This document shows positions 20,970 through 44,418 of a stretch of 64,000 nucleotides of DNA, one piece after another. The stretch's first letter is position 1, and each line of letters opens with the position of its first letter. Both the position numbers and the translations under genes were made by a program. The stretch spans positions 124,001 to 188,000 of the forward strand of contig JACRBM010000040.1 in the NCBI GenBank assembly GCA_016219275.1. Direction: 5' to 3'. Source of the stretch: Chloroflexota bacterium. Its GTDB lineage: Bacteria; Chloroflexota; Anaerolineae; UBA4142. The notes beneath the pieces are model-generated. The model did no database searches and was not told the DNA's origin. It was given only the letters and a program-made list of their open reading frames with translations.

Positions 20970-22286
20970 TCACGCCGATTGGAGTACGAGTTCCCGGTAG
21001 AGTCCCGACAACTGGTTGACTTCTTGCTCGAAAGTGCGAAACACCGTCTCCGCGTTTCGCAAACGCGGCAAGAGGTCTGGCTCGTCGAGCAGGCGTTGCA
21101 ATTGTCGCGCGAGGTCGCGCGCGTCGTCCACGCGAAAAACCAAACCGTTGCGTTCGTGTTGCACCAACTCGGCGACGCCGCCGAGATTCGAGCCAATCAC
21201 GGGAACGCCGACCGCTTGCGCTTCGAGAATCGTGTTCGGACTATTTTCGACCCAGCGCGACGGCACGACCAACACATCGAGATCGGCGAGCACTTGCCAG
21301 ACTTGCGCGCCGCGAAATTCGCCCGCCCATGTCACGTTGGCGAGATCGCGCATCTGCGCGCGCAACGCGTGCGCGTACGCGTCCTCGCCGGCGGCGGAGC
21401 CATACAAACGCAACTCGCGGGGATGCTCGCCGCGCAACTGCGCCCACGCGTCGAGAATCAAATCCACGCCTTTGTGTCGCTTCATCTGTCCCATGTAGCC
21501 GACGCGCAACACTGGCGATGGTTTCCGCAACACACATTGGTCGAGCTGAACACCTTGCCGCCACGCGCGCATGCGTTCCGCTGGCGCGCCGCGGGCGATG
21601 TACTGATCCGCCAGGTACTGCGACGGCGAAATCATCACGCGCGCATGACCAAGCAGGCGCATCAACGTTTCGGCGCGCGCGATTTGTGCGGGCACGCCAA
21701 CTTGATCGGCGAGCGCCGGCACGCGTGCGACCGCGCGCCAAAGTTGGTCCGCCGCGCGCGGAAATTTTCGCGCGGGCACGCGATACCGCCGCAGCTCCTC
21801 GGCATGACAACGCGCGCACCCGATTGGCGTCGGTCCGTCACACCGCGCGCCGTCCCAGCGAATCAAATTGATCCGCTGGCAAATCCACCAATAATCCGTC
21901 AACGACACAACCGTCGGGATGTGTTGTTCTGCCGCCACGCGCAGAACACTCGCGGTAAGCAAGTAACCGCTGAAGAGATGCACAACGTCGGGTCGCCACT
22001 CGGCGATCAGTTCTTTCACCGCGTCGCCGGTTTGCGGATTGTCGTAACTTGCGCGGTACTGCGCGTGGTTGTCGAACGCGCGCAACGCGAGCCGCCGCAC
22101 GCACACGCCGTCTTGATCGCGTTCGTCCCAGGATGGTTGCGGCGGCGTGTCCACGACCGACTCGATGCAGAGCACCCGGACTTGGACGCCCTGCGCCACG
22201 AGCGCGCGCGCTGTGCGTTCGGCGCGTCGCTCCGCGCCGCCGTTGTGCGTGGGCGGATAACCATGCACCGCAATCAAGATTCGCAA
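20970..22286 (-). CDS. family 4 glycosyltransferase with cysteine-rich insert
   Basis: The 438-residue GT-B enzyme starts ILIAVHGYPPTHNGGAERR and has VVPSRWVENSPNTILEAQAV plus SNLGGVAELVQHERNGLVF. In the N-terminal domain it carries a Cys cluster (WWICQRINLIRWDGARC, then GCARCHAEE), seen in a GT4 subfamily and possibly metal-binding. The start is a TTG at 22286, followed directly by CGAATCTTG; GAGG lies about 6 bases upstream and there is no nearby ATG. It probably extends the repeat unit. Confidence 0.86.
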   Translation of the reverse strand: MRILIAVHGYPPTHNGGAERRAERTARALVAQGVQVRVLCIESVVDTPPQPSWDERDQDGVCVRRLALRAFDNHAQYRASYDNPQTGDAVKELIAEWRPDVVHLFSGYLLTASVLRVAAEQHIPTVVSLTDYWWICQRINLIRWDGARCDGPTPIGCARCHAEELRRYRVPARKFPRAADQLWRAVARVPALADQVGVPAQIARAETLMRLLGHARVMISPSQYLADQYIARGAPAERMRAWRQGVQLDQCVLRKPSPVLRVGYMGQMKRHKGVDLILDAWAQLRGEHPRELRLYGSAAGEDAYAHALRAQMRDLANVTWAGEFRGAQVWQVLADLDVLVVPSRWVENSPNTILEAQAVGVPVIGSNLGGVAELVQHERNGLVFRVDDARDLARQLQRLLDEPDLLPRLRNAETVFRTFEQEVNQLSGLYRELVLQSA

Positions 22287-42640: not shown

Positions 42641-42715
42641 GTCATTTCGAGGGAGCGGAGCGACCGAGAAATCTCGGCGCAACAAGGAGCGATTTCTCGC
42701 TTCGCTCGAAATGAC
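42641..42715. repeat. GTCATTTCGA...TCGAAATGAC intergenic repeat (copy 1)
   Basis: Arms GTCATTTCGA and TCGAAATGAC enclose CGAGAAATCTCG and GCGATTTCTCGCTTCGC. A copy lies at 44305-44387. Flanking sequences on both sides also pair weakly (CCAATGAGCC with GGCTCATT). The two copies bracket the selenoprotein pair. Confidence 0.75.
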
Positions 42716-42763
42716 ACTCAAATCTGTGATGTACTGTGGCAGATTGGTTCATTGGTCATTGGC

Positions 42764-43405
42764 TCATTTCTTCAAAAAGACATTGATGATTCGTTCGAAT
42801 TGTTCGTACGGCTGTGCGCCGACGACCTGTTGTCCGTTGATCGTGAACGAGGGCGTGCCAGTGAAACCGAGTTTTTGGGCGGCGGCAGTTTCCGCGCGCA
42901 CTTTGGCGAGATACTTGTCCGCGTCGAGACACGCGTTGAATTTCGGCGCGTCGAGACCCAGTTCAACCGCGAACCGTTTCAAGTTGGCTTTCGCGAACGC
43001 GCCGCGATTCTCGCCGCTCTGACTCTGAAATAATTTGTCGTGATATTCCCAGAACTTGGACTGCTCGCCCGCGCATTCCGATGCGACCGCCGACCATTCG
43101 GATTCCGCGCCGAGAATCGCCATGTGCTGGTATACAAATTTGACTTTGCCGGTGCTGACGTAATTCTGTTCAATTCGACGTCCCGCGTCGAAAGCGAATC
43201 GCCCGCAGTACGGTCACTGAAAGTCGGATACTTCGATCATCGTGACGGCGGCATTGGGATTACCCCGAGTTTTAACGGGGTCGGTTTGCGCCGGCGGACG
43301 TGTCCACGCGAGCAATTGACCCAGGTCACACGAAAAGAGGAGCATGAGAATCGCGACCACCGCGCCGATGCCGGCGATCCAGGGTAGATTTTTCCGCATC
43401 TTCAT
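42764..43405 (-). CDS. membrane-anchored DsbA-like selenoprotein 2 (Sec-Pro-Tyr-Cys)
   Basis: The 213-residue thioredoxin-fold oxidoreductase is read through an in-frame TGA at 43216-43214. Residues 60-67 are S-D-F-Q-Sec-P-Y-C. The downstream part carries family features: SKFWEYHDKLF and the cis-Pro loop GTPSFTINGQQ. An N-terminal helix (about 9-25, ending in a Cys that might be lipidated) anchors it, placing the active site outside the membrane. Neither side of the TGA makes sense alone, since the fold would be cut at its active site. A SECIS-like hairpin follows. The start at 43405 (or 43399) has only a weak ribosome-binding site. It lies 70 bases after its paralogue. Confidence 0.85.
43174..43192 (-). 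promoter_or_regulatory. bacterial SECIS hairpin of selenoprotein 2
   Basis: Twenty-one bases after the TGA, TTCGAC and GTCGAA form a 6-bp stem with the 7-base loop GCGGGAC. Distance, loop size and a G at the first loop position suit bacterial SECIS rules. The paralogue has the same geometry with compensatory changes in two pairs. Confidence 0.8.
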
Positions 43406-43416
43406 CTCTATAAAAC

Positions 43417-43459
43417 GAATGCGCCCGCGCGCCCACATCGCGGACACGCCGGCGCATTC
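43417..43459 (-). repeat. inverted repeat between the two selenoprotein genes
   Basis: GAATGCGCC and GGCGCATTC (9-bp arms) enclose a GC-rich 25-base loop in the 70-base spacer. It could attenuate transcription or protect the upstream message. No T-run follows on the minus strand. Confidence 0.5.
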
Positions 43460-43475
43460 AGTCGGCAACGTGATT

Positions 43476-44177
43476 TTATTTGAGGAACAGATCGAACGTG
43501 CGTGAAAACTCGCCCACGTCGAGCGAACGGATTTGGAGTTGCTTGCCGTTGATAAAGAACGTCGGCGTCGAGTTGATGCCCAAGCGATTGGCTTCTGCGA
43601 CATCCGCGTCAATTACCGCGCGCGTCCGTTCGGTATCTACACAGGTGTTGAATTTCTCCGTGTCGAGTTTCAAATCGGCGGCGAACTTTTTCAGGTTCGG
43701 TTTGAGATAGGTGCCGACGTACTCGCCGCGCCATTCATCGAAGAGTTTGTCGTGATATTCCCAGAACTTGCCTTGCTCGTTCGCGCATTCCGCCGCCATC
43801 GCCGACCAGTACGATTCGTTGGGCACTTTGCGCGACGCCATGTCTACGACCGGATAGTACTTGTACGTGAATTTCGCTTTACCGGTTTTGACGTACGTTT
43901 CATCGAGTCGGCGACCCGCGCCGACAGAGAATTCTCTACAGTATGGTCACTGAAAATCGGACCAGTCCACAAAGTCCACTTTGGCTTCGGCGTTGCCTTT
44001 GGTGCGACTGCTCGAAGTGGTCGCGCCGCCGCTGGGCTTGGACGCGGCTTGCGGTGTTTGAATCATGAACAATGCGACCATTGCTACCACCACGACCACG
44101 CCGATCCCCGCGGCGATGACCCAGGTGGGCAAGCCGCTTCTAGTTTCCTCTTTTTGAGGAACCGCTCTACGAGGCAT
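43476..44177 (-). CDS. membrane-anchored DsbA-like selenoprotein 1 (Sec-Pro-Tyr-Cys)
   Basis: The 233-residue protein has an anchoring helix (PTWVIAAGIGVVVVVAMVAL, about 17-36), a Ser/Thr/Gly linker, and a thioredoxin-fold DsbA/Thioredoxin_4 domain. The active site reads S-D-F-Q-Sec77-P-Y-C80, with Sec encoded by TGA at 43949-43947. It also shows GKFWEYHDKLF and the cis-Pro loop STPTFFINGK. The reading frame is unbroken apart from this TGA. ATG 44177 has AAGGAA about 6 bases upstream. It probably oxidises, reduces or isomerises thiols of exported proteins. A good promoter lies at 44232-44259. Selenocysteine genes are not in this window. Confidence 0.87.
43907..43925 (-). promoter_or_regulatory. 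bacterial SECIS hairpin of selenoprotein 1
   Basis: Twenty-one bases after the TGA, GTCGGC and GCCGAC form a 6-bp stem with the 7-base loop GCGGGTC. Position, stem length and loop match the hairpin of selenoprotein 2 exactly, while stem positions 1 and 5 covary (U-A to G-C and A-U to G-C). Confidence 0.82.
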
Positions 44178-44231: not shown

Positions 44232-44259
44232 ATTATCCCAAAAACCGGCAAATTGTCAA
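44232..44259 (-). promoter_or_regulatory. promoter of the selenoprotein operon
   Basis: On the minus strand TTGACA (44259-44254) and GATAAT (44237-44232) are separated by 16 bases. The start site would be about 44225, giving a leader of about 48 bases before the ATG at 44177. Confidence 0.75.
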
Positions 44260-44304: not shown

Positions 44305-44387
44305 GTCATTTCGACGAGCCGCGAAGCGTTTGCGAGGAGAAATCTCGCCCAGCGCGGGCGGAGATTTCTCGCTTCGCTCGAAATGAC
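44305..44387. repeat. GTCATTTCGA...TCGAAATGAC intergenic repeat (copy 2)
   Basis: Arms are GTCATTTCGA and TCGAAATGAC, with inner GAGAAATCTC and GAGATTTCTCGCTTCGC, sharing arm and inner sequence with 42641-42715 but with a different centre. Confidence 0.75.
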
Positions 44388-44418
44388 AGGTGAGCTGAGT
44401 TACAATTTGCCTCTCACT

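Follow-up and report, generated by a model that had tools for sequence, protein, structure and literature searches.

Two adjacent genes in the window, the whole 64-kb stretch of DNA analysed here, each contain a single in-frame TGA that falls at the active site of the encoded DsbA-like protein, raising the question of whether these codons are read as selenocysteine (Sec) and, if so, what the products do. Standard annotation splits both genes at the UGA. Read through it, gene A (43476..44177, minus strand, stop TAA) encodes a predicted membrane-anchored DsbA-like selenoprotein of 233 residues (MPRRAV...SDFQ-U-PYC...FLK), with a UPYC active site and its putative Sec codon at 43949-43947 (minus strand, residue 77); gene B (42764..43399, minus strand, stop TGA) encodes a predicted DsbA-like selenoprotein of 211 residues (MRKNLP...SDFQ-U-PYC...FLKK), also with UPYC and its TGA at 43216-43214 (minus strand). 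An earlier, sequence-only reading had placed a TGA at the first active-site Cys of both genes, in the context S-D-F-Q-TGA-P-Y-C, and we confirmed both codons; the start of gene B needed a small correction, its ATG lying at 43399 or at 43405, the latter giving 213 residues. We consider it highly probable that A and B are selenoproteins in which UGA is read as Sec by means of a hairpin, and that they are DsbA-type oxidoreductases, probably VKOR-coupled oxidases. That Sec is actually inserted at both UGAs we infer from the genomic evidence set out below.

From 554 relatives returned by a scan of public genomes we retained the best 80, and we also searched 60 related whole genomes. An orthologue of A is found in 11 of the 13 other genomes of the same bacterial family, each with exactly one in-frame TGA. 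Among distinct TGA-bearing relatives the TGA is always the first CxxC residue (42/42), which excludes a TGA arising there by chance. Alignment with Cys homologues, proposed earlier as a check, places Cys (TGC or TGT) at the same CxxC position in 107 other distinct relatives. Comparison of A with its counterpart in a sister genome (G002) reveals a third-position excess indicating protein-level selection on both sides of the TGA, with amino-acid identity of 70% before it and 76% after. The earlier description of both frames as continuous and full-length is borne out by this selection for A and, for both genes, by Thioredoxin_4 matches over the whole domain. One contig labelled Klebsiella pneumoniae (L080, a MAG) also holds two TGA-containing DsbA-like genes, which resemble those of a Binatia locus (L093); the label is probably wrong.

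Both genes have a hairpin just 3' of the UGA with a G in its apical loop, the pattern that defines a bacterial SECIS element. It comprises a 7-bp stem starting 22 nt 3' of the UGA and a short loop whose first base is G (GGG in the two copies of the window), and lies at 43908..43924 (minus strand) in A (UCGGCGCGGGUCGCCGA) and 43175..43191 (minus strand) in B (UCGACGCGGGACGUCGA). The stem forms in register, with at least six of seven pairs, in 33 of 42 TGA copies versus 2 of 107 Cys copies (Fisher p = 2e-22, related sequences treated as independent), a comparison free of hairpin-based selection. Across 32 hairpin-forming TGA copies, 40 cells changed on both sides with the pair kept, a covariation score reached by 0 of 500 shuffles; these sequences were partly picked for forming the hairpin, which biases their 95% pairing figure upward and makes the codon-level argument the stronger one. 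In that argument, every varying stem pair has one partner at a third codon position: a Gly/Asp replacement (second codon position) at pair 29-39 is matched by silent CGC/CGT, a Gln/Arg replacement at pair 27-41 by a third-position change, and a second-position change at pair 26-42 likewise by a third-position change. Because protein selection cannot explain such silent partner changes, they indicate selection on the RNA; judged by its pairing and codon pattern, the hairpin is a SECIS element under RNA-level selection. Folded alone, the two window hairpins have energies of -12.1 and -8.4 kcal/mol (z -2.35 and -2.03), and mean z is -0.88 for TGA copies versus -0.29 for Cys copies (p = 0.002); in B, the minimum-energy fold of the full 60 nt misses the hairpin. 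As folding free energy alone is weak evidence, we used register pairing and covariation to call the SECIS.

The genome that contains the window (G000; 6.16 Mb, 97.9% complete) encodes the machinery that Sec insertion requires: tRNA-Sec (selC, anticodon TCA, 70.6 bits), selB (335 bits), selA (585 bits) and selD (366 bits; L017, G000:C52:100040-100975). The sequence-only reading had named these four genes as its genome check, and an objection from their absence fails. The selD gene has one in-frame TGA, a common feature of SelD, and the protein is itself probably a selenoprotein. Among the 60 related genomes selC is present in 55 and selA in 51; because nearly every relative has the machinery, its co-occurrence with the TGA is weak evidence here, and the near-complete genomes without selC and selA (G035 and G051) have Cys copies only. 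In G013, some 1.5 kb separate the tRNA-Sec gene (L144 1290-1382, plus strand) from the tandem Sec-DsbA genes.

Could the TGAs and the hairpin be explained without Sec, or without a SECIS? Standard gene callers would stop both frames at the TGA, as expected if each were a true stop or a sequencing error leaving pseudogenes or short anchored peptides. Forty-two distinct relatives have TGA at this very codon, which rules out sequencing error or a pseudogene and upholds the earlier argument that two independent point errors are unlikely; the downstream frame is also under selection, the hairpin covaries and the Sec machinery is complete, leaving this account a very slim probability. A genetic code in which this genome reads TGA as a standard amino acid (Trp, Gly or Cys, for instance) would likewise give open frames and is the least credible account of all: TGA is the normal stop of 7 of the 18 recognised genes in the window, among them B, which shows that it keeps its usual meaning, in-frame TGAs are confined to a position that is Cys in homologues, and a tRNA-Sec was found. 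Hairpin conservation might alternatively mirror the protein sequence (an AGRR motif), with Sec inserted by other means, since the stem lies within codons of a fairly conserved segment and three of its seven pairs never vary. We regard this as improbable, given the third-position partner in every varying pair, the silent partner changes (CGC to CGT, or at third positions) that accompany the Gly-to-Asp and Gln-to-Arg replacements, and the near absence of the stem from Cys relatives.

Taking A and B as SECIS-directed selenoproteins, we turned to their fold and location. Both belong to Thioredoxin_4 (Pfam PF13462; E 8e-34 and 6e-34, 118.1 and 117.7 bits against a gathering cut-off of 23.2), and both also score above the PF01323 (DSBA) cut-off (79.3 and 37.8 bits). 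The structure model of A (pLDDT 96-98 over most of the domain and 89 on average) contains a single helix at residues 18-40 (44058..44126, minus strand), a DsbA fold and U77 immediately before helix 78-85. In 56 sequences P205 is invariant and T204 nearly so, marking Thr204-Pro205 (43563..43568, minus strand) as the cis-Pro loop of the thioredoxin fold; the membrane anchor and cis-Pro loop named in the earlier reading are thus both recovered in A. The best PDB match of A is BdbD of Bacillus subtilis (TMt 0.82), DsbA of C. diphtheriae also being among the best, and as modelled the fold is that of DsbA/BdbD with one N-terminal anchor. C131 and C179 of A are also invariant in the 56 relatives, so that a second disulfide is possible. 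Structural matches of A include a C97A/C146A mutant of Wolbachia alpha-DsbA1, whose second cysteine pair is non-catalytic. The N-terminal hydrophobic segment of B ends in a Cys (LLFSC, an imperfect lipobox), by which B is possibly a lipoprotein; the N-terminal region of A has no Cys. The active site would face outward, judging from the single N-terminal anchor and homology. The earlier proposal of Sec-based thiol chemistry outside the membrane thus stands as a supported reading, with its outward location deduced from these features.

By their family matches, A and B belong to an already known kind, the Thioredoxin_4 UxxC selenoproteins near NF041057. UxxC selenoproteins of the DsbA-like and DsbG-like types have been on record since 2006 (PMC1794560), and NF041057 (Rcas_1661 family thioredoxin-like (seleno)lipoprotein, 'DsbG-like protein', UxxC) is tabulated in a 2026 review (PMC13188914), in keeping with the earlier remark that Sec-containing DsbA-like proteins are known; PF13462 is called 'DsbG-like' in PMC9312934. 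NF041057 is the best NCBIfam match of both proteins (B 166.7, A 116.1 bits), below its curated cut-off of 190, and we file them as PF13462 UxxC selenoproteins near NF041057 but outside the equivalog. They share with it the Thioredoxin_4 domain, UxxC and anchoring, and differ in that A has a membrane helix without a lipobox cysteine and the window genes stand in tandem. In the PF01323 UxxC selenoproteins of Anaeromyxobacter, Desulfovibrio and Desulfotomaculum (PMC1794560), Sec likewise replaces the first redox-site Cys, but these come from other bacterial lineages and the window pair is closer to Thioredoxin_4 in sequence. BdbD and the actinobacterial DsbA proteins (C. diphtheriae, M. tuberculosis) have the same fold as A, with Cys-Pro-x-Cys where A and B have Sec-Pro-Tyr-Cys; M. 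tuberculosis DsbA is membrane-tethered (PMC3853704) and mycobacterial DsbA is VKOR-coupled (PMC12421883).

That DsbA forms disulfides in exported proteins and is re-oxidised by VKOR with quinone is established (PMC11208910). In our proposed mechanism, the hairpin 22 nt after the UGA would direct SelB and Sec-tRNA(Sec) to insert Sec there, making it the first residue of the U-P-Y-C redox site and the one that attacks. Both proteins would sit at the cell surface, A by its N-terminal helix and B by a helix or lipid anchor, and their selenenylsulfide form would take electrons from the thiols of exported proteins, generating disulfides. The VKOR of this genome would then re-oxidise Sec-DsbA and hand the electrons to quinone. 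That VKOR (PF07884), the partner oxidase of bacterial DsbA, is encoded at C37:22738-23172, with the VKOR match spanning C37:22774-23139, on a different contig from the pair, and has a Cys active site; in members of the same order with a Cys-DsbA, a VKOR gene directly follows the DsbA gene (for example at G014:C111, 20275-20934 then 20972-21340).

The direction of electron flow is the part of this scheme that we hold least firmly. Sec usually favours reductive chemistry and in the attacking position commonly serves it, and the pair could therefore be reductases or isomerases: A and B would then be selenoproteins acting as extracytoplasmic DsbG/DsbC-like enzymes, kept reduced by a DsbD/CcdA-type carrier. 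The window proteins also have weak NCBIfam matches to DsbG, and their nearest NCBIfam family is named 'DsbG-like' in the review PMC13188914. On the other side, the closest folds, BdbD and actinobacterial DsbA, are oxidases, and no dimerisation domain is seen in A or B. A Thioredoxin_4 search found A and B as the sole such proteins in the genome, with no other to serve as oxidase. Together with the presence of VKOR, its position beside Cys-DsbA in order-mates and the UxWC VKORs described below, this favours an oxidase role; we hold oxidase direction and VKOR partnership slightly likelier than otherwise, and the reductase or isomerase account to be a serious but clearly less probable one.

Seven sister genomes (G001, G002, G006, G007, G011, G012 and G013) encode a VKOR whose only in-frame TGA falls at the first Cys of the quinone-side CxWC motif (U-I/G-W-C). 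These lie at L190 (1730-2098, minus), L191 (1557-1925, minus), L192 (1691-2053, plus), L193 (1737-2105, minus), L194 (1097-1465, plus), L195 (1783-2145, plus) and L211; VKOR is of the Cys type in G000, G005 and G010. In all seven, the frame and the last membrane helix are conserved 3' of the TGA, and a 5-bp stem starting 11 nt after the UGA is complete (7/7), two of them having A-U in place of a G-C pair. No further Sec-VKOR appeared among the approximately 250 VKOR matches listed from samples of 396 class and 400 phylum genomes. A UxWC VKOR was found in none of the selenoprotein lists consulted; the searched text of three selenoprotein papers (PMC13188914, PMC9312934 and PMC12013277) does not contain VKOR, a VKOR phylogeny paper makes no mention of selenium, NCBIfam holds generic VKOR models only, and a literature search of partial coverage yielded nothing on Sec-VKOR beyond ferroptosis reviews and comparable papers on unrelated subjects. 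Sec-VKOR is thus apparently undescribed and, in the genomes covered, seen only in one bacterial family.

We give even chances to the broader proposition that this family runs its whole extracytoplasmic disulfide chain on selenium, with one or more Sec-DsbA (UPYC) proteins as sole DsbA-type oxidases and, in most sister genera, a Sec-VKOR (UxWC) passing electrons to quinone. If so, the Sec-VKORs would form a selenoprotein family not described before, and in the G000 lineage VKOR would have Cys while the DsbAs retained Sec. DsbA-like selenoproteins have been listed since 2006, and we found no account of the part selenium plays in extracellular oxidative folding. Close relatives of G000 carry Sec in DsbA and VKOR alike. 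Pairs of similar DsbA and VKOR proteins with Cys or Sec in one bacterial family offer a natural comparison, which could test whether selenium makes disulfide formation faster, protects the enzymes against over-oxidation or shifts their potential; this selenium-based DsbA-VKOR chain is the part worth following. Near the G000 VKOR, the gene lies directly upstream of a probable lgt (prolipoprotein diacylglyceryl transferase, called from sequence; L189 1271-2679, G000:C37), and a tRNA-Arg and two tRNA-Ser genes precede it, as the same three tRNA genes do before VKOR in G011 (L192).

The sequence-only reading regarded an anchored tandem pair as unusual, but this is the usual arrangement in the family: A is accompanied by a second gene in tandem in 8 of the 11 relatives having A. 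Nor are A and B sister copies, as a duplicated pair had implied. They share 46% identity, and in a tree of 56 sequences the closest partner of A is its G002 counterpart (support 100/92) and B is placed elsewhere, in a poorly resolved part, so a recent tandem duplication of A into B is unsupported. The second tandem gene encodes UxxC in G001, G002 and G005, CPYS in G006, G007, G012 and G013, and DPYS in G010, the CPYS and DPYS members tested forming one clade. In five relatives (L138, L139, L144, L145 and L147) the B-position protein has thus lost CxxC, having a single Cys (CPYS) or no active-site Cys (DPYS), and is nevertheless kept next to the Sec protein, perhaps as a binding partner or a monothiol enzyme. 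The Sec/Cys label changes about seven times on the tree, pointing to repeated exchange between Sec and Cys. G001 also has a third Sec-DsbA copy (L140 2071-1465, minus strand), apparently split by a frameshift and apparently the counterpart of window gene B, being followed by the same permease. Cys-type DsbA-like domains also occur in multi-domain arrays, with eight at approximately 570-640 base spacing and one further upstream in L086 (5350-9900), and three per long ORF at G052:C6:50093-51730 and G039:C134:52214-53929.

A Shine-Dalgarno-like GAAAGGAAG lies 5' of gene A, and the A-B gap is only 70-76 bases, so the two genes are probably co-transcribed. Of the strong promoter of its own once ascribed to the pair, the near-consensus site stands and the strength does not, the site at 44232..44259 (minus strand; TTGACA, 16 nt, GATAAT, extended -10 TG) being a consensus match only (11 of 12 bases), with 2 promoter-like sites observed in the region against 0.8 expected. 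The pair is flanked by an FtsX/MacB-type permease gene downstream and an RNase HII gene upstream, neither selenium-related. A palindromic repeat (TGTCATTTCGAGCGAAGCGAGAAAT...) occurs in exactly two copies in the window, one on each side of the pair (42692-42716 and 44364-44388, minus strand, running to approximately 42640 and 44300). It could simply be an intergenic repeat of the ordinary sort, or it could mark the edge of a mobile cassette.
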